From Exilispira sp. (GTDB lineage Bacteria > Spirochaetota > JAAYUW01): a stretch of 46,850 bases of DNA. Each line of letters begins with the position of its first letter. Within the stretch, counting starts at the first letter, position 1. The DNA is taken from the NCBI GenBank assembly GCA_012517545.1, contig JAAYUW010000066.1:1-46850 (forward strand). Direction: 5' to 3'. The notes under the pieces were generated by a model, which was given only the letters and a program-made list of their open reading frames with translations, was not told the DNA's origin and ran no database searches. Below, in pieces: positions 7,853 to 46,850 of this stretch. The translations under genes and the position numbers were made by a program.

Positions 7853-8048
7853 ATAACCTCCTGAAGTTCAACGTTCATGTTTTATAAATATACTATTAAA
7901 TTATTTTTTTGCCATTATTTTCTACTCTTCGGTAAATAAGTCTCTAAAAAAGTTTAAAGTCTAAAGTCCGGGGAAAGGAATTCTTTTAATTTTGCAATTT
8001 CATCATTTAGTGGTAAGATTGTTACATAAAAGAAAAAAACAAATTAAA

Positions 8049-8369
8049 ATGGAAGAAAGAGAAAAATTATTAATTTCAACGCAAATAGTGAAGGATTGCT
8101 TCTGGGATTATTCAATAACGGATAAAGAAGTTCTGGAAATAATTGAAAGTGGAGATTTTGAAGTCAAGAAAAAAGTTTTTATTAAGATAATAAAAAATTC
8201 AACAGCAAAGGTAGATGCTCTTCGCCTTTTTAAAAAGAATGAGCTGAAAAAACTCTTCGAAGATTTACCACCTGAATTGAAAGAGAGCGAAAAAGTTAAG
8301 ATTCTTGAAAATTGTTTTTTTGATGAAAATCACAGGATTTCGAGGTATGAATGGAGAAAATATCAATAA
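8049..8369 (+). CDS. Putative antitoxin paired with AbiEii-like nucleotidyltransferase toxin
   Basis: A 106-residue acidic/basic helical protein with no recognised catalytic motif. Its architecture (DCFWDYSITDKEVLEIIESG near the start, then a charged helix containing KIIKNSTAKVDALRLF) resembles the small proteins encoded directly before AbiEii/AbiGii-type nucleotidyltransferases. Its last 23 bp overlap the toxin gene, typical of toxin-antitoxin pairs. The ORF-track start is a TTG; the ATG at 8049 is more likely although its ribosome site is weak. The antitoxin role is inferred from position and size. The pair is on the opposite strand to the surrounding genes. Confidence 0.62.
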   Translation: MEEREKLLISTQIVKDCFWDYSITDKEVLEIIESGDFEVKKKVFIKIIKNSTAKVDALRLFKKNELKKLFEDLPPELKESEKVKILENCFFDENHRISRYEWRKYQ

Positions 8370-9006
8370 TATTTATCCTTTGCAAGATAAGATATTGAAT
8401 GTTGTTTTTGGTTTTGATAACAGTTTCTATCTTACTGGTGGAACAGCACTTCATAGATTCCATATATCATATAGAATTTCCGATGATCTTGATTTTTTTA
8501 CCTCTACCAATCAATTATTTTATGAAGAGATAAAACAGATATGTAATAGTTTAGATGATAATCATATTTTTTACGAAAAAAAAGTCGAGGTTAAAGATTT
8601 TTTTCGCTTCTTAGTTGAAGGTGCTCTTCAACTTGATTTTGTGAATGACAGGGTTTATCGTGAGGGAATAAGCTTATGCATCAATAATTTTAAGATAGAT
8701 AATATAGAAAACATACTGACAAACAAGATTTGTGCCCTTATTAACAGGGATGAAGAAAAAGATTTTTTTGATCTTTTTGCCATTGCAAAAAATTACCCTT
8801 TTTTCTGGGAGAAAATGCTTAATATAGCAAATAAAAAATCGATTGTGGAAAAGGAATCTCTTATTCTACGAATTAAAACTTTTCCGCTTATCTGGCTTGA
8901 TAAAATTAAAAAAATAAAAGATTTAGAAATAACAAAAAAAGATGTAGAGAAACTTTGTGAAAACATATTTGAAGGCAAAGATAATGAACTTTTCAAAAAA
9001 ACTTAA
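8347..9006 (+). CDS. AbiEii/AbiGii-family nucleotidyltransferase toxin
   Basis: A 219-residue member of the DNA polymerase beta-like nucleotidyltransferase fold. The diagnostic segment near the N-terminus reads FYLTGGTALHRFHISYR followed by SDDLDFF: the GG motif and the paired metal-binding aspartates. Later NILTNKICALINRDEEKDFFDLF is the second family block, with the lysine and the R-x-x-x-KD-x-x-DL element. AbiEii-like toxins modify nucleic acids, in some cases tRNA acceptor ends, and stop growth or block phage. The start is the ATG at 8347 (AGGA upstream), overlapping the antitoxin by 23 bp; the ORF-track start 14 codons earlier lies deep inside the antitoxin. The exact target is unknown. 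Confidence 0.83.
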   Translation: MNGENINNIYPLQDKILNVVFGFDNSFYLTGGTALHRFHISYRISDDLDFFTSTNQLFYEEIKQICNSLDDNHIFYEKKVEVKDFFRFLVEGALQLDFVNDRVYREGISLCINNFKIDNIENILTNKICALINRDEEKDFFDLFAIAKNYPFFWEKMLNIANKKSIVEKESLILRIKTFPLIWLDKIKKIKDLEITKKDVEKLCENIFEGKDNELFKKT

Positions 9007-36091: not shown

Positions 36092-37840
36092 TTATATTGA
36101 TCTTAAAAAATTAAGCAGGCTTTTTTTAAAAAGCACGGGATCTTCTACCATTACACTATGACCAATATCATCAAACACTACCAGTTCGGCTCTATTGTAC
36201 TGCTTAAGAGTCTCATCCACCATCTTTTCAGTTATAATGATATCCTTTTTTCCCCACATTATAAGAACTTTACCCTGGTAAGATTTTAGTTTTCCCATGT
36301 AATTGAACCTTTCAAGAGCTTTCGGATGCTCTGTAAATGCAAAAGGAGCCATAAGCATGGCATCATCGGTAAGATCGTTGAGTATTTTATCATTATTTAA
36401 TCCTGGGGCAATCGCTGCAAGAGACTTTTTCATAAGCTCTCGACTGGTTTTATAAAGTTCGATTACAGGATAATGCTCAGGAGGGGTCACAAGACCAGCT
36501 GGTGATGGACCATCCACAAGAACTATAGCGGATGGAAGATCTGGATAGCGTGCTGATAATGACATAACAACTGCAGCACCAAGACTGTGTCCAACTATTA
36601 CAGGTTTCTCAAGGGATAATCGATCTATAAACTCTACGAGGTAGTCAGCATATGTATCTATCTCGGCTGATTTTATACTTTTAGACCTTCCAAAGTTAGG
36701 CAAATCTAAGGCTATAGTTCTGTAACTATTTTCTTTATCATCTGAAAGATCCATAACAAGATTCCACCATCTACTAGAACCTGTATTTCCATGAACAAAG
36801 ACAACCGCTTTACCAGAACCTTTTTCAACATAAAAAATTGAACTATCTTTGATATCTATCATTTTGCCACTCATTTTTGTTCTCCTCAATCTAAAATACT
36901 TCATAACTGAAATAAACGGCACTTGAAGCCTCTTATGCCAGTTAATAGTAATACCCCAGGTTATCCCTCTTGAAAAGAAGAGAGTAAATATTATAAGTAA
37001 TGAACCAATTATTACAGAAAGCCACGGACCAAAGCCACGGGAGAAAAAAAAGCGAAGTCCAACTATTATGATAGAACCTGCCAGTCCTCCCTGTAGGGAA
37101 CCAAGTCCTCCTATCATAATCATAGCAAGCAAATCAAGAGAACGAGATAATCCAAAGTCAGCAGCACGGATGTAACCGATCGTATGCGCATAGAGGGCGC
37201 CAGCTATACCGCCATAAAAGGCACTGAACATAAAGGCTGACAGTTTAGCTTTACCTGTGTTTATACCAAAACAGGTAGCACTTGTTTCTCCATCACGAAC
37301 CATTTTCCAGGAAAAACCTATCGGACTTTCCTGTATCTGTTTAGTGACAACAATCAAAATCGTATAAACCAAAAAAACATATAGATATGAAATAAATTCA
37401 TTATTTGATAGCTTTGTTATATTTCGAATACCATCATGGGCACCAAGGTAAGGAATTACAGATATTAACTGTTCTATAACGACACCGAAAGCCATCGTGG
37501 TAATTGCAAGATAAAATCCCTTCATCCTTAAAGAAGGAAAACCTATTATCAATCCAAAAATGGATGCCATAGTGCCGGCTAAAATAATTGCTATAGGCAT
37601 AGGAATGCCAAGCTTCATGACAAAGATAGTGGATGCATAAGCACCTATTGACATAAATGCAGCATTTCCAATCGATACCTGACCTGTCAAACCTGTAAGA
37701 ATGTTTAATCCCAGGGCTGCTATTGAAAAAACTAATACCTGTGAAAAAATAGCAAGGATAAAACTCTTATCATAAAAAAGAAGTCCTATCAGAATACCGA
37801 CTATAAGGAGTATTGTTATATATCGAGTTAGTGAACGCAC
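36092..37840 (-). CDS. LivM-type permease fused to an alpha/beta hydrolase
   Basis: A 582-residue fusion. Residues 1 to about 315 are a branched-chain amino-acid ABC permease (LivM): SIAALGLNILTGLTGQVSIGNAAF, FPSLRMKGFYLAITTMAF and IGGLGSLQGGLAGS, with 8-10 transmembrane segments ending at FTLFFSRGITWG. Residues 323-582 are a complete alpha/beta hydrolase: oxyanion segment FVHGNTGSSRWW (about 347-359), nucleophile elbow GHSLG with Ser419, Asp533 in WGKKDIII and His561 in DIGHSVM. No stop or frameshift separates the parts. The hydrolase would hang on the cytoplasmic face, next to the channel exit. The start is GTG at 37840 with AAGG 7 nt upstream, two bases after the livH stop. The fusion hints that the importer takes up an ester, lactone or amide cleaved on entry; that is inference. 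Confidence 0.88.
   Translation of the reverse strand: MRSLTRYITILLIVGILIGLLFYDKSFILAIFSQVLVFSIAALGLNILTGLTGQVSIGNAAFMSIGAYASTIFVMKLGIPMPIAIILAGTMASIFGLIIGFPSLRMKGFYLAITTMAFGVVIEQLISVIPYLGAHDGIRNITKLSNNEFISYLYVFLVYTILIVVTKQIQESPIGFSWKMVRDGETSATCFGINTGKAKLSAFMFSAFYGGIAGALYAHTIGYIRAADFGLSRSLDLLAMIMIGGLGSLQGGLAGSIIIVGLRFFFSRGFGPWLSVIIGSLLIIFTLFFSRGITWGITINWHKRLQVPFISVMKYFRLRRTKMSGKMIDIKDSSIFYVEKGSGKAVVFVHGNTGSSRWWNLVMDLSDDKENSYRTIALDLPNFGRSKSIKSAEIDTYADYLVEFIDRLSLEKPVIVGHSLGAAVVMSLSARYPDLPSAIVLVDGPSPAGLVTPPEHYPVIELYKTSRELMKKSLAAIAPGLNNDKILNDLTDDAMLMAPFAFTEHPKALERFNYMGKLKSYQGKVLIMWGKKDIIITEKMVDETLKQYNRAELVVFDDIGHSVMVEDPVLFKKSLLNFLRSI
36872..36887 (-). promoter_or_regulatory. Internal ribosome binding site and ATG inside the fusion gene
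   Basis: Exactly at the domain boundary, the minus strand reads GAGGAGA, six bases, then ATG AGT GGC (start base 36874), in frame at residue 323. This is one of the better Shine-Dalgarno sites in the window. It should allow a free 260-residue hydrolase to be made as well as the fusion. It also shows how the fusion probably arose: loss of the livM stop before a formerly separate gene. Confidence 0.8.
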
Positions 37841-37842
37841 TT

Positions 37843-38787
37843 TTATACCTTCCCTTTGTATTTATTGCCAAAAAGTCCAGTTGGTTTTACGATTAAAGTT
37901 ACAATTATGCATAAAAGGACTATAGAAAGCTGTAAATCGACAGCATTTATTGAGGTGATATGCAATAGAAGAAAAAGTTCATCAAGTCCTAAAATAACAA
38001 GTTTTTCAATAACTCCTAAGATTAGCCCACCAGCCATCGCTCCAACAATACTTGAAAATCCACCAAAAACGGCTGCTGTAAAGCCATAGAATTGAAGATT
38101 TGTAAGCATATTTGGATTAACTGTGGTCTTTGGTGCTATAAGCAGTCCTGCAAAAACAGCAGTTGCTATGCCAAAGATCCATGAAAGTGTGTCTGTTGCC
38201 TGAGTGTTTATCCCTATAACCCTGGCTCCTATCTCATCTTCAGACCTGGCTTGAACTGCAAGACCAGGTTTAGAATATTTGAAAAATACAATTAAGAGTA
38301 GCAAGAGAGCCATAATAGTTCCAAATACTGCAAGATCATTCCCGGGGATTATCAGTGGTATGTTAGACTTATTTAAAGATTGTGGGAGAAATACGATTTT
38401 AGGAGAAAAGCCAAAAATTTCAGGGAAAATAAGTGGCTGAGTACCCCAGATTATTACAGCTAATCCCTCGAAAATAAGGAGTAACCCAAGCGTTATTATA
38501 AGCATGGCACTGTGTGAAAGACCTTTAACCCTTTTCATAAGAGCTTTATCTATAAAAATTGCCAGTATTGTAGCTGAAATGATAGCAGCAAGAAATGCTA
38601 AAAAGATATTTTTAGTCAGAAATAAAACAGTCCAGCCAACAAAAACACCAATCATTCCGGAATTTCCATGTGCAAAATTCATGACTCCAACTGTACTAAA
38701 TATTAAGGATAAGCCAAATCCCATTATTCCATATAAGCATCCCTGAAACAAACCAAAGATTAATGATTGAAGAACTTTAACAAACAT
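37843..38787 (-). CDS. LivH-type branched-chain amino-acid ABC permease
   Basis: A 314-residue membrane subunit. LFQGCLYGIMGFGLSLIFSTVGVMNFAHG is the classic LivH N-terminal block, and ITLGLLLIFEGLAVIIWG, VQARSEDEIGARVIGINT (the coupling helix EAA-like region) and AAVFGGFSSIVGAMAGGLILG also match. About eight hydrophobic segments are present. Two ATGs occur in tandem; GGAG spacing favours the second (38787). It pairs with the LivM-hydrolase fusion two bases downstream. The ATPases lie upstream on the same strand after a 236-base gap that may hold a promoter or processing site. Confidence 0.93.
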   Translation of the reverse strand: MFVKVLQSLIFGLFQGCLYGIMGFGLSLIFSTVGVMNFAHGNSGMIGVFVGWTVLFLTKNIFLAFLAAIISATILAIFIDKALMKRVKGLSHSAMLIITLGLLLIFEGLAVIIWGTQPLIFPEIFGFSPKIVFLPQSLNKSNIPLIIPGNDLAVFGTIMALLLLLIVFFKYSKPGLAVQARSEDEIGARVIGINTQATDTLSWIFGIATAVFAGLLIAPKTTVNPNMLTNLQFYGFTAAVFGGFSSIVGAMAGGLILGVIEKLVILGLDELFLLLHITSINAVDLQLSIVLLCIIVTLIVKPTGLFGNKYKGKV

Positions 38788-39023
38788 CATTCTCTCCGAA
38801 GTTAAGCAAAATAATTAATAAAATCGTATAATCTGAAAATATTTAATTCAAATTTACCTCAAACCAATTGTTCAAGAGTAAAATGCTATTTTTTTGTAAC
38901 CATCTTGTGGTTGATACTTTAAAAAAATTTATGTTAATTATTTTATTACCATTGTTAGCAAATTTTTTTTACTATTATTCACAAATCTTTTGTCATTATT
39001 GTTAATAAAAAGGCTAAAAATAA

Positions 39024-39719
39024 TTAAATGCCAAGATATGCCGATCGAACTCTATCATTTGAAAGTAATTGTTTAGCATTTCCCTCAAGTATTACTTTCC
39101 CGGTCTCAAGAATATAAGCTCTATCTGCGAAAGATAAAGCCTTATATGCATTTTGTTCAACTAGCAAAACAGACAAACCAGTTTTTTTGAGATCTTCTAA
39201 AGCCTTAAATACCTGATCTACAAGTATCGGGGCAAGACCAAGGGAAGGCTCATCCAGCATTAAAAGAACAGGATTTGCCATCATTGCTCGACCTATTGCA
39301 AGCATCTGTTGTTCACCACCTGAAAGATATCCAGCTATTTGTTTTTTTCTTTCATATAAAACCGGAAAAAGCTCATAGACGAATTCTAATTGAGATTTTT
39401 TAAACTTACTCCTGAAAGCACCAAGTTTGAGATTTTGTTCTGTTGTGAGGGATGGAAAAATCCTTCTGTTTTCCGGGCACAGAGTAAGCCCAAGTTTGAC
39501 TCGCTCATGCGAAGGAAGACTTGAAATATCGTTGCCCTTGTATCTTATTAAACCCTTTGACTCAACAATACCAGAAAGACCAAATAGTAATGAGCTTTTT
39601 CCAGCTCCATTTGCCCCTATAACAGCTATTGCTTCATGTTCGTCGATATGTATATTTGCATCTTTTAAGGCTTCGATTCTACCGTATGAAACAGAAAAAA
39701 AACTAGTTTCAAGTACCAT
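39024..39719 (-). CDS. LivF-type ABC ATPase
   Basis: A 231-residue ATP-binding subunit. Walker A is VIGANGAGKSSLLFGLSG, the Q-loop lies near CPENRRIFPSLTTEQNL, the signature YLSGGEQQMLAIGRAMM is complete, and Walker B is LLMLDEPSLGLAP. LLVEQNAYKAL is the LivF-typical H-region, in which the switch histidine is Gln-Asn as is usual for LivF. Its start overlaps livG by 11 bp, with AGGAAG in the end of livG as ribosome site. It works with LivG, LivH and the LivM fusion. Confidence 0.94.
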   Translation of the reverse strand: MVLETSFFSVSYGRIEALKDANIHIDEHEAIAVIGANGAGKSSLLFGLSGIVESKGLIRYKGNDISSLPSHERVKLGLTLCPENRRIFPSLTTEQNLKLGAFRSKFKKSQLEFVYELFPVLYERKKQIAGYLSGGEQQMLAIGRAMMANPVLLMLDEPSLGLAPILVDQVFKALEDLKKTGLSVLLVEQNAYKALSFADRAYILETGKVILEGNAKQLLSNDRVRSAYLGI

Positions 39720-40464
39720 AAGAACTTCCTAAATATGCTTTTATAACTTCTGGATTTTGAGAAATCTCTTCTGGTTTACCACTGGCAACAAATTTTCCAA
39801 AATTCATAACTGTTACCAGATCTGATATTCTCATAACAAGATTCATATCATGCTCAACAAGCAAAATTGTTATACCCTTGTTTTTTATACTTAACAGTAT
39901 CTCATCAAGTTCAGCGGTTTCTTCATTATTCAATCCAGCAGCAGGTTCATCGAGTAAAAGTATTTTTGGATCCGCAATTAAAGTTCTTGCAAGCTCGACT
40001 TTCTTTTGTATTCCATAGGGCAGGGAACCAACCACTGAACCAAGCCTGTTCTGGATTCCAAAAAGTTTAGCTGCCTGGTAAGCTTTTTCTTCAGCGTCTT
40101 TCATAAATTTATTGTGAAATCCCAGCATCGAATCAAATATAGTTCCCTTCCATTGATATATTATTGCTGCTAAAATATTTTCCTGCACAGTTTGATAAGG
40201 TAATAGTTGTAAATTTTGAAAAGTTCGTGCTATACCATATCTGATCAAATTATATGGTTTTTTTTCAAGTATTGAAATTCCATCGAATTCTATTTGACCA
40301 TCATCTACCTCAATAAGTCTTGATATAGCATTGAATAAGGTGGTTTTACCTGCTCCATTCGGTCCAATAAGAGAATGAATGGTCCCTCTTTTGACTTCAA
40401 GGTTCATTTGATTAACAGCTATCAACCCACCAAATTTAATAAGTATATTTTTACATTTAAGCAT
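39709..40464 (-). CDS. LivG-type ABC ATPase
   Basis: A 251-residue ATP-binding subunit. LIGPNGAGKTTLFNAIS is Walker A, GIARTFQNLQLLPYQTVQEN the Q-loop region, LPYGIQKKVELARTL the signature (the usual LSYG is LPYG), and ILLLDEPAAGLNNEE the LivG-typical Walker B. LLVEHDMNLVM is the H-loop. The ORF-track start at 40479 is a TTG inside the ribosome site; ATG at 40464 with GGAGAGA upstream is used. A perfect 11-bp hairpin lies between it and the upstream binding-protein gene. Confidence 0.94.
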   Translation of the reverse strand: MLKCKNILIKFGGLIAVNQMNLEVKRGTIHSLIGPNGAGKTTLFNAISRLIEVDDGQIEFDGISILEKKPYNLIRYGIARTFQNLQLLPYQTVQENILAAIIYQWKGTIFDSMLGFHNKFMKDAEEKAYQAAKLFGIQNRLGSVVGSLPYGIQKKVELARTLIADPKILLLDEPAAGLNNEETAELDEILLSIKNKGITILLVEHDMNLVMRISDLVTVMNFGKFVASGKPEEISQNPEVIKAYLGSSYGT

Positions 40465-40489
40465 TCTGTATCTCTCCAAAAATTGGATA

Positions 40490-40519
40490 AACCGGGTCTA
40501 CTGTTTAATAGACCCGGTT
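40490..40519 (-). terminator. Intercistronic hairpin between binding-protein and ATPase genes
   Basis: AACCGGGTCTA (40490-40500) and TAGACCCGGTT (40509-40519) form a perfect 11-bp stem around an 8-nt loop. In the minus direction no proper T-run follows, so it is more likely a partial terminator or 3'-end stabiliser that leaves more binding-protein mRNA than transporter mRNA, as is known between malE and malF. It begins 25 bases before the livG start codon. Confidence 0.75.
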
Positions 40520-40622
40520 ATATTATAAATTAGATCTTCAGTTTATAAAAGTCTTTAACTTTAAAAGCCATACAATAAACTGACTTTTAGATTTAAATTG
40601 TTGCAAATATGCAATATTTAGA

Positions 40623-41807
40623 CTATAATTTAATCCAATCGGAAACTTTTTCCATTGTCCCATCAGGTTTAAATTTTAGAACATACATGGTAACAACACC
40701 CAAGCGAGCTTGATCTTTTTTAACAGAGATTGGTCCATAGGTTATTTGCGGGCTAATTTTACCAACCCATCCATTAAAAGTCTCCATAGCTGCAATCAAC
40801 TTTTCTCTCGTTAGATCTTTTCCTGCTCTTTTTAAACCTTCTGTAAAGATTTCAGCTGCAATCATTCCAGCAACAGCATAAGCATTTGGAATTTCGCTCT
40901 GAAATGAAGCTTGATAAACCTCGATAAAGTGAGCCTTAGGATCTGCAAAATCTACACTAACCCATGCCAGGCTTTCAACTCCGACAGCAGCTGGACCGGC
41001 TATTGCTGCAAACGTTGGATCTGCGTTTGCGTAAGAAACCAGATAATTTTGAGAGGTTAATCCTAGTTGCTTAGCCTGTTTTACAAAATTTGATGACTGA
41101 GGTATAAAGAGCATCACTATTATTGAATCAACATTCGAAGACATAAGCTTAACAATTTGAGTAGAAAAGTCGGTTGCAGAAGCTTCAACAGGTATCTCTG
41201 CGACAAGAGGCATCTTTCTTTCTGCAAGAGCTTTTTTAACAGATGCATACTCTTCTTTTCCATCATCAGCATTTCTGTAAACAAGTGCTATCCTCTTTGC
41301 TTTCTTCTGTTCAACAAGATATTTTACAGCAATGGCACCCTCAGTAGTATAGTTTGGTTGAACCCCAAATATATATCTTTTGGGGGGTATCGTCAGGGAA
41401 CCTGCACCAGCAGCCTGATAGATATAAGGAACTTTTTGAGACTCAACATAATCCATTATAGCAAGGTTACCAGGTGCACCAAGACCGCACATTAGAGCAA
41501 AAACTTTATCGGATTCAACCAGTTTTTTGACTTCAATGACAGTATTTGAAGGATTGAAAGCATCATCTGAGACTATCAGATTGATTTTCCTTCCGTAGAT
41601 ACCACCATTACTATTTATCCAATTAAAGTATGAATCCATCCCTTTCTTGACAGAAATACCCATTGATGCAAGTGGTCCTGAAAGAGCTTGAAAAGAACCA
41701 ACTTTGATTTCATTGGGGGTGATACCGTTAGTATCACCAGGATTTGCCTGACCAAAAAGAAAAAAAACTGCAAGGAGAATGATTAAGACTGGTAGAATTT
41801 TTTTCAT
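40623..41807 (-). CDS. LivJ/LivK-type periplasmic binding protein of the importer
   Basis: A 394-residue solute-binding protein (peripla_BP_6, type I). The signal peptide MKKILPVLIILLAVFFLFGQA has no lipobox cysteine, which implies a free periplasmic protein. The mature start has IKVGSFQALSGPLASMGISVKKGM, followed by SDDAFNPSNTVIEVKKLVES, ALMCGLGAPGNLA and the hinge region YRNADDGKEEYASVKKAL. Many such proteins bind amino acids, but others bind amides, urea or aromatic acids, so the ligand is open. The ATG at 41807 with GGAGGA close upstream replaces the ORF-track start. It is the first gene of the importer operon; TATAAT on the minus strand near 41855 may be its -10 box. Confidence 0.92.
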   Translation of the reverse strand: MKKILPVLIILLAVFFLFGQANPGDTNGITPNEIKVGSFQALSGPLASMGISVKKGMDSYFNWINSNGGIYGRKINLIVSDDAFNPSNTVIEVKKLVESDKVFALMCGLGAPGNLAIMDYVESQKVPYIYQAAGAGSLTIPPKRYIFGVQPNYTTEGAIAVKYLVEQKKAKRIALVYRNADDGKEEYASVKKALAERKMPLVAEIPVEASATDFSTQIVKLMSSNVDSIIVMLFIPQSSNFVKQAKQLGLTSQNYLVSYANADPTFAAIAGPAAVGVESLAWVSVDFADPKAHFIEVYQASFQSEIPNAYAVAGMIAAEIFTEGLKRAGKDLTREKLIAAMETFNGWVGKISPQITYGPISVKKDQARLGVVTMYVLKFKPDGTMEKVSDWIKL

Positions 41808-42106: not shown

Positions 42107-43135
42107 TTAGCTTACGATGGGCTCTTCAAAAGGACCCCATCTAACAACACAGGCAGCCCACACAAACCCGAGTCCAGCACCTACCATAACAATATTGTAA
42201 TTATCTTTAACTTTTCCTTCCAATAAACCTAACTCAAGAGAGATTATTTGATCATTTTGACCTATATGTCCATAAGAATCAAGATATACAGTTTGCGATT
42301 CACTTAAACCAAGCTCCTGTAAAACAGCCATATGTGCACTTTTTTTAAAATGTAAAATTGCAAGATAATTTATATCTTTGCGGGTCAGGTTTCCCGAGCT
42401 TGATAGTGCATTATCAATAACCTTAAAAAAATTAGGAAGAGTCTTTGCATTTAATTGCTCTTTAAAATAAGGCTCATCAACCACTATAAAGTGGGATTTA
42501 TCGAGATCTTCAGCCTTTACAGGCCATGATTTGCAACCAAAAACGGGGAAAATACACTGAGTACTGAATGAACCATCCCCCTTAAAAGCTGACCCCAGTA
42601 TAACATTTTTCCCGGCATTTTTTTTGAGAATTGCAGCAGTACCACCCGAGCCAAGATCCAGCATAAAATGGGTGGAATTCTCTTTAAGATCAACAAGGTC
42701 ATTGTTCCTGTAACCTGAAACAAGAAGAACTGTATTACAGTCTTTTCTTGTCAGCATGAGTGATCTTCCTATCTCGATGGCAGTCATAAAAGAGCCACAC
42801 ATTGCTTCCATGTCGAAACTCCAGGCGTTTTTAGCGCCAATTCTATCAGCTATGTAAAGCCCAGCAAGCCAACATGGATAGTCTTTATGTTGAGCTCCAA
42901 ACCAGATAACCAGATCCACTTCGGATGCATCTATATTTCCTTTTTCAAGAGCTTTTAGAGCAGCTTTGATCCCCATCTCAGCTGTTGTGTCATCTTCTAG
43001 AGCCACTGGTTTTTGTTTTACACCAAATTTATTTACGATAACATCTACCGGAATATTTGTAGCTTCAGCTATCTGTTCAGCTGAAATAGAATTCCTGGGA
43101 AGATAAACGCCTGTAGAAACAATACCTATATGCAT
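42107..43135 (-). CDS. KAS III (FabH)-like thiolase-fold enzyme 1 with altered active site
   Basis: A 342-residue member of the beta-ketoacyl synthase III superfamily. MHIGIVSTGVYLPRNSISAEQ is the family N-terminus. The nucleophile Cys113 lies in FDMEAMCGSFMTAI, and the C-terminus MVGAGLGFVWAACVVRWGP is typical. The usual HQAN histidine is kept in LAILHFKKSAH, but the catalytic Asn (YGNT) is replaced by His in DSYGHIGQND. It therefore probably acts on an unusual acyl donor or performs acyl transfer rather than standard decarboxylative condensation. ATG 43135 with AAGGA is chosen over upstream ATGs. It is divergent from the TetR gene, with a shared operator-like dyad in its promoter. Confidence 0.83.
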   Translation of the reverse strand: MHIGIVSTGVYLPRNSISAEQIAEATNIPVDVIVNKFGVKQKPVALEDDTTAEMGIKAALKALEKGNIDASEVDLVIWFGAQHKDYPCWLAGLYIADRIGAKNAWSFDMEAMCGSFMTAIEIGRSLMLTRKDCNTVLLVSGYRNNDLVDLKENSTHFMLDLGSGGTAAILKKNAGKNVILGSAFKGDGSFSTQCIFPVFGCKSWPVKAEDLDKSHFIVVDEPYFKEQLNAKTLPNFFKVIDNALSSSGNLTRKDINYLAILHFKKSAHMAVLQELGLSESQTVYLDSYGHIGQNDQIISLELGLLEGKVKDNYNIVMVGAGLGFVWAACVVRWGPFEEPIVS

Positions 43136-43156
43136 AGACATCCTTCTAAATATAAT

Positions 43157-43214
43157 TGAAAGGTGAATCAACTCTCAATCAAACTTTATATAAAATATAT
43201 TTTTCATTTGTCAA
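43157..43214 (-). promoter_or_regulatory. Promoter and TetR-type operator of KAS III-like gene 1
   Basis: On the minus strand TTGACA (43214-43209) is followed after 16 bp by TATATA (43192-43187). Nine bases further on is the dyad TGA-AAGG-TGA-A-TCA-ACTC-TCA (43157-43177 as read on the plus strand), whose outer bases also pair (TTGA...TCAA). It covers the expected transcription start region, about 20-40 bp before the ATG. A second copy precedes the TetR gene. Confidence 0.78.
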
Positions 43215-43660
43215 GTGTTATTTTTATTTATTTATATTTTTTCGTTTTTCGCTAAAAAGTGTTGGTAAACTTGTAAAATACTTTAAAGTAAGTATTTATG
43301 TTCATTTATTTTAAAGCCTGGTTCAAACTTTATTATATTTTTTAAAGATTCACTTCTAACTTTTTTAAACATAGATTTTTTAATAAAATACTTTTATACT
43401 TTTAAAATATTTTTCCTGAAACTTAAGCTTTCGACTCTGGATGGGGTTGGAGTTAAGTTTATTTTCAGATTTTTGGTTCTTGTACTTTTGACATTAGACT
43501 GTCGTTTTCACAAAAAATTACGAATAACTTATTTTCAAATCTATATCTTTTAATTTTATTTCTGATTAGCAGTTGTTAAAAGAAACAGGATAAATCATAG
43601 ATAATCTTATTATATTGATCACAAGCAAGTATAAAATTTTTATAAATTTTAAAAATTTTC

Positions 43661-43716
43661 TTGAAAATAAAAATTAATATACTATATTGAATATGTGAAA
43701 AGTGACTCACCTCTCA
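43661..43716 (+). promoter_or_regulatory. Promoter and TetR-type operator of the double-TetR gene
   Basis: TTGAAA (43661-43666) and TATATT (43683-43688), spaced 16 bp, face the regulator gene. Seven bases on, the dyad TGA-AAAG-TGA-C-TCA-CCTC-TCA spans 43696-43716. It matches the dyad of the divergent gene at 18 of 22 aligned bases in the same orientation and has the same position relative to its -10 box, supporting one shared regulator and autoregulation. Confidence 0.76.
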
Positions 43717-43830: not shown

Positions 43831-44997
43831 ATGGGAACAAGATCAAATGATGTAAGAACAAGACTTATCGAAAGCGCGATAACTATTTTTTCCAAAAAGT
43901 GGTATTCTTCCGCTTCAATAGCCGAAATATGCAGAGCTGCGGGTGTTTCTAATGGTATTTATTATCATTATTTTGAAAACAAAGAAGATATATTTAATAT
44001 AATACTGGAACTTACGATAAACAAGCTGACTCAGTCTTTAAAACAAATAAAAGGAGAAGATGTTTTATCGAAGATTAGAAATATGGTTTTGATTATCTAT
44101 GAATTTGCCAATCAAAACAAAGAGTTAGTGACAATATTTAGAGAAGGGCAGTATAGATTTATAGAATACGAAAGAAATATTGTTAAAATATATAAAAAAA
44201 CACTTGAAACAATATTAGAGCGAAAAGTGACTCTCGCCATGTATATTTATGTTTTTGGTGGTATTCGTTTCGCATGTTTGAGATCGATTTTCAAAGATGC
44301 AAATATTTTTGCAGAGTTTTTTTCAAACTCAATAATCGATGGTATTTTTAAAGTCTACGATATAAATCCGAATCTGATATTTAATATTTCTATTCAGTTT
44401 CCAAATCTTCGTTATCCTATAGATAGCAGGACAAAACTTCTTCAAGCTGGAAAATCTCTTTTTGGTGAAAAAGGATATCATGAAGTTAATGTGCATAATA
44501 TTGCTGAAAAGGCTGGTTTTGCATCTGGTACATTTTATAAGTATTTTAGTAGTAAAGAATCATTTTTTGATGAATTGATATCATCTGTTAGCAAAGAGAT
44601 ACGTCATTTCATTTCTTTAAATCTTAAAACAGATCTAAATAGACTGGAAAAGGAAATCCAGGGAATTTTTCTTTTTTTAACATTTATTTCAATGGATAGA
44701 TGTTGTTATAATATTGTTCGAGAAGCTGAATTTGTCAATCCTGCTAAAGTGAATGAATACTATCAATCTTTCGTAACAGGTTATAAAAAATCAGGTAAAG
44801 AAGGATTTAAGGAAAATCTTATAGATGAAGATCCAGTTAGGTTTAGTATGGCGATAGAATTTTTAATTGGAATCTCACATTTTTGTGGTATAGAATATAT
44901 TTTTGATGAAGAGATACTCAGTACTCCAGAAATTTTAATAGAGTTGTCAAACTTACTAAAATTTGGTCTTAACAGTAAAATTAAAAAAAGAAAATAA
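43831..44997 (+). CDS. Double TetR/AcrR-family regulator (two TetR units in one chain)
   Basis: A 388-residue protein consisting of two complete TetR units of about 195 residues. Unit 1: RTRLIESAITIFSKKWYSSA then SIAEICRAAGVSNGIYYHYF at about residues 9-49. Unit 2: SRTKLLQAGKSLFGEKGYHE, then NIAEKAGFASGTFYKYFSSK, at about 199-240. Each is followed by a helical ligand-binding/dimerisation region. The second recognition helix (FASGTFYKYF) differs from the first (VSNGIYYHYF), so they may touch different half-sites. The ribosome site is weak, which suits low expression. It precedes the second KAS III-like gene by 19 bp and probably controls both KAS III genes and perhaps the CoA-transferase. Acyl-CoA or the imported compound is a plausible ligand. 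Confidence 0.9.
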   Translation: MGTRSNDVRTRLIESAITIFSKKWYSSASIAEICRAAGVSNGIYYHYFENKEDIFNIILELTINKLTQSLKQIKGEDVLSKIRNMVLIIYEFANQNKELVTIFREGQYRFIEYERNIVKIYKKTLETILERKVTLAMYIYVFGGIRFACLRSIFKDANIFAEFFSNSIIDGIFKVYDINPNLIFNISIQFPNLRYPIDSRTKLLQAGKSLFGEKGYHEVNVHNIAEKAGFASGTFYKYFSSKESFFDELISSVSKEIRHFISLNLKTDLNRLEKEIQGIFLFLTFISMDRCCYNIVREAEFVNPAKVNEYYQSFVTGYKKSGKEGFKENLIDEDPVRFSMAIEFLIGISHFCGIEYIFDEEILSTPEILIELSNLLKFGLNSKIKKRK

Positions 44998-45016: not shown

Positions 45017-46051
45017 ATGATCAATACAAAAATTATTGGGACAGGGGTATATTTACCTGGAAAACCTATTAGCAACGAAGAAGTCAAAAAACTTGCCAAT
45101 GTCGAATTTGATAGTGATAGACTTGAAAATAATACTGGAATAAAATACAGGCATATAGCAAGACTCAGGCAAATACAGGAAACAACAGCTGATTTTGCTG
45201 AAAAGGCAGCCATGAATGCACTTTCAGATGCCAGGATTTCAGCTGATGATATAGACCTTATAATAGTAGCTACTGATACACCAGAATATATAAGTCCTGC
45301 GACATCATTGCTTTTGCAGGGAAGACTTCAAAAACGACAGAATAGAATTATGAGTTTTGATGTTGGATCATCATGTGCAAGTTTTTCAGTTGCTTTCGAT
45401 ACTGCAAACAGAATTTTATATGCAAATGAGACTTTTAAACATGCTCTGGTTGTTGGTGTATATAATATGCCAGCCTATATAAGGGAGAAAGATTCTTTTG
45501 GCTGGTCTATCTTTGCTGATGGAGCAGGAGCTTTTGTAATCGGGAAAGAGGACATAAAGCCAAAATCAAAAGATGCTGATTATAGTAGTTCCGGATATCT
45601 GGATGGTGAATTTGTAACAGATGGTACTCAGTGGAATTTTCTTGGTGTATACACTGGTGGCACAAAAAAGCCGGTTACACATGAACTTCTTGATAAAGGT
45701 ACCTATGGATTTGAGCTACTACAAAAAATGCCGGGGGATCGAAATATTAAACTCTGGCCAGGTATAATTGAATCGCTCTGCAAAAGAGCGGGTGTTGCAC
45801 TTGATAGTATTAATTGCTATGTCATGACGCAAATAAACAAAAGTGTAATTCTTGAAGTCATGAAAATTCTTGGTCAGCCAGTAGAAAAGGCAGCTCTGAC
45901 TATGGATAAATATGGATATACCGGCTCAGCGTGCGTTCCTATCGCTTTTAATGAAATGATAAAGCAAAATAAGGTGAAAAGAGGGGATAAGGTGCTTTTT
46001 TGCGCAAGTGGAGCTGGACTTGAGGTTGGAACAAATCTTTTTATCTACTAA
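45017..46051 (+). CDS. KAS III (FabH)-like thiolase-fold enzyme 2 lacking the catalytic His and Asn
   Basis: A 344-residue thiolase-fold protein. MINTKIIGTGVYLPGKPISN is the KAS III start, and Cys120 lies in FDVGSSCASFSVAF. At the HQAN position it reads MTQINKSV (His replaced by Thr), and at the YGNT position DKYGYTGSACVPIAF (Asn replaced by Tyr). Only the cysteine of the triad is kept. It could be an acyltransferase, like some KAS III homologues in secondary metabolism, or a partner subunit for the other KAS III-like protein. The ORF-track start overlaps the TetR gene; ATG 45017 with AGGAG 9 nt upstream fits the family better. It is cotranscribed with the regulator. Confidence 0.83.
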   Translation: MINTKIIGTGVYLPGKPISNEEVKKLANVEFDSDRLENNTGIKYRHIARLRQIQETTADFAEKAAMNALSDARISADDIDLIIVATDTPEYISPATSLLLQGRLQKRQNRIMSFDVGSSCASFSVAFDTANRILYANETFKHALVVGVYNMPAYIREKDSFGWSIFADGAGAFVIGKEDIKPKSKDADYSSSGYLDGEFVTDGTQWNFLGVYTGGTKKPVTHELLDKGTYGFELLQKMPGDRNIKLWPGIIESLCKRAGVALDSINCYVMTQINKSVILEVMKILGQPVEKAALTMDKYGYTGSACVPIAFNEMIKQNKVKRGDKVLFCASGAGLEVGTNLFIY

Positions 46052-46333: not shown

Positions 46334-46850
46334 ATGAAAAATTTTCAACAAGAGTACAGATCAAAACTTCGTTCGATTGAAGATGCTATTCAGTGTATCA
46401 AAAGTAACTATGATATTGTAGTAGCACAATGTGCAAGTGAGCCACAGGGAGTCATGGCTAAACTACATATTCTTTCACCAGACGTAGAAAATGTGAGAGT
46501 TTTTTCCGTCCTGACTCTTAAACCATATGAATTCTATATGAATCCAGCAAATAAAGGACATTTTGAACTTGCCAGCTGGTTTCTTGCTCCAGGTTCTAGA
46601 GAAGCGCTTAAAGCAGGTTGTGGAACAGTTACATATGTACCTAATATGTTGCATAGAGCAGCAGCAGATCGTATATATCGTCATATACCAGAAGTTTTTA
46701 TTGGAACCTGCACGCCACCAGATAAAAATGGATTTGTAAGTCTTTCGTTAGGTATTACATACGAAAAAGATATCCTTGAACATGCAAAATATGTTATTCT
46801 GGAGGTTAATCCAAGACTACCCAGAACACTTGGTGATACTCATGTTCATA
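46334..46850 (+). CDS. Acetyl-CoA hydrolase/transferase family CoA-transferase (C-terminus cut by window edge)
   Basis: Translated by hand, since the ORF track lacks the open-ended frame; 172 residues are present of a usual 430 or so. MKNFQQEYRSKLRSIEDAIQ is followed by DIVVAQCASEPQGVMAKL, FELASWFLAPGSREALKAG, VTYVPNMLHRAAADRI and VFIGTCTPPDKNGFVSLSLG, all typical of the 4-hydroxybutyrate/butyrate CoA-transferase (Cat2) group. The catalytic glutamate lies beyond the window edge. These enzymes move CoA between acetyl-CoA and another acid. GAGG lies 7 nt before the ATG at 46334. The 282-base gap upstream has no gene and one gacttatgacttt motif. Its position after two KAS III-like genes suggests activation of an acid for the same pathway. 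Confidence 0.88.
   Translation, partial: MKNFQQEYRSKLRSIEDAIQCIKSNYDIVVAQCASEPQGVMAKLHILSPDVENVRVFSVLTLKPYEFYMNPANKGHFELASWFLAPGSREALKAGCGTVTYVPNMLHRAAADRIYRHIPEVFIGTCTPPDKNGFVSLSLGITYEKDILEHAKYVILEVNPRLPRTLGDTHVH

Follow-up and report, generated by a model that had tools for sequence, protein, structure and literature searches.

A predicted Mce3R-type autorepressor of a divergent acyl-CoA operon pair in spirochaetes, probably closing a DNA loop

Background

To our knowledge, few natural proteins combine two TetR units, and a single structure, that of Mce3R, shows how such a double TetR reads DNA. A gene for such a protein lies near the end of contig JAAYUW010000066.1 of Exilispira sp. (hereafter the window, the whole stretch of 46,850 nucleotides that was analysed), where a 690-bp divergent region separates the start codon of a KAS III-like gene (43138) from that of the double TetR gene (43831). 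In this region the original prediction placed two matching dyads of the form TGA-N4-TGA-N-TCA-N4-TCA, one over each promoter, and took them for probable operators of the double TetR. The locus raises the question of what is recognised at these sites, and whether the two sites act together. The features considered are as follows.

36092..41807, minus strand: left gene run beyond KAS III-A, with the gene order of genomes G001, G002 and G168, consisting of the next five genes
36092-37840, minus strand: LivM fused to a C-terminal alpha/beta hydrolase (LIV-type permease)
37843-38790, minus strand: LivH
39024-39719, minus strand: LivF
39709-40479, minus strand: LivG
40623-41807, minus strand: substrate-binding protein
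42107..43138, minus strand: KAS III-A, predicted to be controlled by the K operator (NF005308 (PRK06840), 428 bits, cut-off 315)
43157..43177, plus strand: predicted K operator (KAS III-A side), with a conserved asymmetric core TGAATCA-A-CTCTCA (43164-43177) and a weakly conserved left outer part (43157-43162)
43185..43214, minus strand: promoter of the KAS III-A operon (-35 TTGACA, 43214-43209; -10 TATAAA, 43190-43185)
43661..43688, plus strand: promoter of the double TetR operon (-35 TTGAAA, 43661-43666; -10 TATATT, 43683-43688)
43696..43716, plus strand: predicted T operator (double TetR side), core TGACTCA-C-CTCTCA (43703-43716)
43831..44997, plus strand: double TetR, 388 aa, probable repressor and autorepressor (TetR_N at residues 12-56 and 203-249)
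45017..46051, plus strand: KAS III-B, directly next in the double TetR operon and adjoining the double TetR at most orthologous loci (PF08541 and PF08545)
46334..46849, plus strand: CoA-transferase, interrupted by the contig end (PF02550; loci compared, L038, L039, L115 and L116)

Results

Two sites in one intergenic region

A search of the window found both dyads without a mismatch, TGAAAGGTGAATCAACTCTCA at 43157-43177 and TGAAAAGTGACTCACCTCTCA at 43696-43716. They have the same orientation, lie 539 bp apart in the window and agree at 18 bases, as had been stated, although the length is 21 and not 22 (18/21). Both start 7 bp downstream of the respective -10 box, within the 7-9 bp originally given, and overlap the expected transcription start of their promoter (TTGACA-18-TATAAA on the KAS III side, TTGAAA-16-TATATT on the TetR side). 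In the whole 2.36 Mb genome these are the only exact copies; since about 0.3 exact dyads per genome are expected from base composition, two within one intergenic region are not due to chance. Window matches with up to two mismatches were at chance level (8 seen against 4.8 expected), and the additional genome-wide matches to the symmetric pattern were rejected (at most 17.5 bits, against at least 23.5 for the real sites; nearly all within open reading frames).

Conservation of the locus and of the sites

A strict peptide search of 84,980 genomes returned only two congeners and one weak match in Clostridia; relatives outside the genus were reached by profile searches performed family by family. 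Orthologues of the double TetR are encoded at about 50 spirochaete loci, whose GC content ranges from 30% to 70%. They occur in both other congeneric genomes examined (50% and 47% identity), in family f31 (20 of 23 genomes), family f49 (23 of 30) and family f60, and in G331 (family f42); more distant double TetRs occur in families f50, f55 and f64. These three distant families aside, a divergent KAS III-A and a downstream KAS III-B are found at nearly all of the loci. The window, G001, G002 and G168 have in common the transporter genes, the hydrolase fusion and a CoA-transferase gene downstream of KAS III-B, and a thiolase gene comes after the CoA-transferase gene in G001, G002, G168 and G062.

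Some products of the window were also inspected individually. The LivM-hydrolase fusion is matched over its full length in G168, and G001 and G002 have open reading frames close to it in length; the hydrolase part of the fusion shows a weak likeness to short-chain PHA depolymerases, and the fusion suggests ester import and cleavage. KAS III-B has, by eye, MTQINKS where the catalytic histidine is expected; as the usual histidine is seemingly absent, it may be no ordinary ketosynthase. Elsewhere, a two-gene run at 7992-9006 (plus strand), whose second product resembles by eye an AbiEii-type nucleotidyltransferase, is possibly a toxin-antitoxin or defence pair.

Paired sites were present in every complete KAS III-A/double TetR intergenic region examined, in families f1, f31, f42, f49 and f60 (30-70% GC), and at nearly all of the roughly 50 loci the number of sites between the divergent genes is exactly two. 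The orthologous K operators include L038:8039, L039:9667, L115:10094, L116:10421 and those of about 45 further loci, and the T operators L038:8344, L039:9425, L115:10245, L116:10698 and others. The divergent regions of G001 and G002 contain exactly two sites each, and with a leave-one-genome-out matrix both sites of both genomes were recovered at 21-25 bits, against a background of at most 11.4. Across the loci the site mostly starts 2-11 bp past the -10 box at both promoters. Nearly all orthologous loci again have a CTTGAC-type -35 box at the KAS III-A promoter, placed as in the window with respect to the site, and the double TetR promoters mostly have a CTTGC-type -35 box with TATACT or TATAAT. 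Thus the element proved to be conserved beside orthologues of both genes, as the original prediction had asked, with its shared orientation kept in the KAS III-A regions of the relatives; copies elsewhere were few, and nothing like a spread over many unrelated promoters was seen.

The site tracks the regulator, since in G012 and G024, where KAS III-A is present and the double TetR absent, there is no site beside KAS III-A. G566 and G671 encode two double TetRs apiece, and each of these genes has its own pair of sites. One copy in each (L164 and L168) is without a divergent KAS III-A, and its operators are inverted and 149 bp apart; shared orientation is therefore not obligatory. In families f50, f55 and f64, whose double TetRs are more distant, the site was absent.

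Spacing of the two predicted operators

The distance from the K to the T site varies from 129 to 539 bp across the loci. Taken at 10.5 bp per turn, these distances are phased (Rayleigh test over 50 loci: R = 0.59, p = 2e-8); in a period scan the strongest period was 10.5-10.6. The test was devised post hoc, with the data already seen, and excluded the inverted-pair distances of L164 and L168. With one value per genus (n = 20) p was 3e-4, or 0.003 once the choice of period was allowed for, and with 8 broad identity clusters the phasing was not significant (median p = 0.19). For independent comparisons, pairs without shared branches on the protein tree were taken, and differences of at least 5 bp were kept. 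All 14 such differences (9, 10, 11, 19, 20, 21, 21, 29, 63, 64, 72, 96, 107 and 390 bp) departed from a whole number of turns by no more than 2.5 bp (p = 1e-4). As a control, the distance from start codon to start codon in the same loci was unphased (R = 0.08, p = 0.77).

Because the spacing is phased at 10.5 bp, contact between repressors, i.e. a loop, is the natural reading, and we consider it fairly probable, from these distances, that two double TetR chains would bridge both operators into a DNA loop. It is also conceivable, if rather unlikely, that the operators are bound independently, with no loop, and that the phasing comes from shared descent or from a constraint such as local DNA curvature: each site overlaps a transcription start and would suffice alone for repression, the spacings (about 130-540 bp) are long and vary widely, and the mean phase is offset from a whole turn by about 3.7 bp instead of being zero. 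Against this, the independent changes of spacing are whole turns in every case and the start-to-start distance is unphased in the same loci, so that the phasing is not accounted for by descent or by a general indel bias. A literature search for TetR-family looping with helical phasing found only one paper, which treats E. coli transcription factors in general.

Shape of the predicted operator

The consensus across the loci is R-TGAATCR-N-CTCTCA, which is asymmetric, with a weak outer left half. In a logo of 84 distinct sites (41 K and 43 T), the right half holds about 10-12 bits against 3-4 for the left outer half; variation is nearly absent at positions 9-10, 12-13, 17-19 and 21, position 20 shows strong conservation, and positions 1-7 are weak. 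In terms of the motif, hardly any change is seen in the core TGAATCR or in the right half CTCTCA, and the first TGA is weakly informative. In the GC-rich G168 and G062, and likewise at the remaining loci, the dyad is reduced to the consensus, and both sites in the KAS III-A regions are always directed toward the TetR gene. Given the near-invariant core and right half and the weak outer left half, the predicted operator is an asymmetric, directional element rather than a four-part dyad, and the dyad of the window, on this comparison, is the near-symmetric extreme of the putative asymmetric site, in an AT-rich genome. Judged by conservation alone (84 sites), it is non-palindromic, like the operators of Mce3R-type double TFRs.

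The model of four TGA/TCA half-elements originally proposed is not supported by this comparison. Each site would then be a symmetric dyad bound by a double TetR homodimer with four helix-turn-helix units, and both copies in the window are indeed nearly perfect 21-bp dyads, as several other T sites are near-symmetric (e.g. L145, TGAGAGGTGAATCGCCTCTCA). However, four elements would imply conservation on both sides, whereas the sites vary almost freely in the left outer half, have a fixed right half and keep one direction throughout the KAS III-A intergenic regions; moreover, the chain is modelled as a single pseudo-dimer. We regard this arrangement as improbable and discarded it on the evidence of the logo.

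The double TetR protein

PF00440 scored above its cut-off of 24 in each half (39.8 and 57.3 bits), which places the protein in the TetR/AcrR family, and the two TetR units per polypeptide that define a double TFR are retained in 57 aligned orthologues. With these 57 sequences AlphaFold2 gave a model of pLDDT 93.5 and pTM 0.90, in which the monomer is modelled as a pseudo-dimer; with three sequences only, the model was poor (pLDDT 54). From this model, the double TetR would be a single-chain pseudo-dimer. The earlier idea of two DNA-binding units per chain accordingly stands as to their number, and changes as to their use, with one chain on one asymmetric site.

The top PDB match of the model in Foldseek was Mce3R (9b7y), over the full length (E 4.8e-9, 399 columns). 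The full-chain TM-score of 0.59 and rmsd of 7.8 mean that the halves are not arranged identically to those of Mce3R. Nor does the protein qualify as an Mce3R orthologue: in a profile search the best alignment to 9b7y covered a single helix-turn-helix region, the structural alignment has 14% identity, and the genes concerned are different. In the structure search the halves singly matched acyl-CoA-responsive TetRs (6el2, 6en8, 3whb, 3whc and 6o6p). Among family profiles, the scores for FadR (NF053878, 81.6 bits, cut-off 200) and FasR (80.9 bits, cut-off 330) were both far below the cut-offs, and the protein is not a Bacillus FadR equivalogue.

Probable operator function and regulon

On the sequence evidence, the double TetR very probably uses the two sites as its operators, one at each promoter and thus also at its own, as the original prediction had it, and we infer binding and repression by this protein. 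That the element acts in RNA (the leader) or as a promoter element, which its position at or just past the transcription start, in both leaders, would allow, is very improbable and was dismissed on orientation, since the copies are co-oriented on the DNA and the transcripts opposite, so that the sequence in one leader would be the complement of that in the other rather than the same, and since the presence of the element tracks the double TetR.

An exact 14-bp scan of 20 genomes returned mostly the known pairs and about eight other sites. Six of the latter were inspected, and four, in four genomes, have acyl-CoA or fatty acid genes nearby. One is a separate operator copy (L201:1501-1514) just upstream of a G199 thiolase gene, which lies on another contig and resembles the operon thiolase. 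In G566 and G671 a copy (L182 and L198, 1501-1514) precedes a gene for the enoyl-ACP reductase FabI, followed by one for a MaoC/PhaJ-like hydratase; these genes are possible extra members of the regulon. In G225 a copy (L196:1501-1514) has a MaoC-like hydratase gene on one side and, on the other, a gene for the lysine-fermentation enzyme 3-aminobutyryl-CoA ammonia lyase; here the link is less clear. The extra sites in G204 and G222 are inside open reading frames and look like chance.

Discussion

We propose, with a probability of about 0.78, that the double TetR is an autorepressor of the Mce3R type, which controls a pair of acyl-CoA operons and probably closes a loop. One polypeptide would form the TetR pseudo-dimer, and each of its two dissimilar helix-turn-helix units would read one of the dissimilar halves of a site, as in Mce3R. 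Bound at the transcription start of both divergent promoters, it would repress the KAS III-A/LIV-type transporter/hydrolase operon to the left and, to the right, its own operon of double TetR, KAS III-B, CoA-transferase and thiolase. Two chains, one per operator, would probably be in contact and close the DNA loop; the operators would lie on matching helix faces because the bound chains touch. Release would be by a ligand, most likely an acyl-CoA, as the halves resemble the acyl-CoA sensors FadR and FasR. The more specific statement, that the spirochaete double TetR represses the divergent operons through two co-oriented asymmetric operators bridged by a loop, the phase being under selection in dozens of species, we put only somewhat above even odds.

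The family supplies about 100 natural operator sequences outside actinobacteria, which independently show an asymmetric site, and the operator identifies a set of acyl-CoA enzymes as a predicted regulon. With sites phased at 10.5 bp, the looping question can be tested directly by a change of spacing; if the bridged arrangement is true, the phasing would be evolutionary evidence for looping, which has so far been only suggested for Mce3R.

Comparison with known systems

Mce3R of M. tuberculosis (Rv1963c) was seen by cryo-EM (9b7y) to place two unlike helix-turn-helix units on a non-palindromic operator; its homodimer holds two DNA duplexes, and DNA looping was proposed by the authors, without a test (PMC11667970). 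It is the best full-length structural match of the spirochaete protein and, like it, is a chain of about 390-400 aa that contains two TetR units. Further features of Mce3R, here present as predictions, are a single-chain pseudo-dimer, a non-palindromic operator, two operators upstream of a regulated operon, autoregulation and a lipid-related regulon. In contrast, the identity in the structural alignment is low (14%, as above), the phylum is another and so are the targets (for Mce3R, the mce3 operon and others); the Mce3R sites are of 25 bp and lie 53 bp apart on one side, whereas here there is one site per divergent promoter, at helically phased distances of about 130-540 bp. FadR of Bacillus, SaFadR and FasR of M. 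tuberculosis are, by structure, the best single-domain matches of the halves, the first and last being matched by family profile as well. Their regulons, like the one predicted for the spirochaete double TetR, are of acyl-CoA metabolism, and they have one TetR unit per chain where the spirochaete protein has two.
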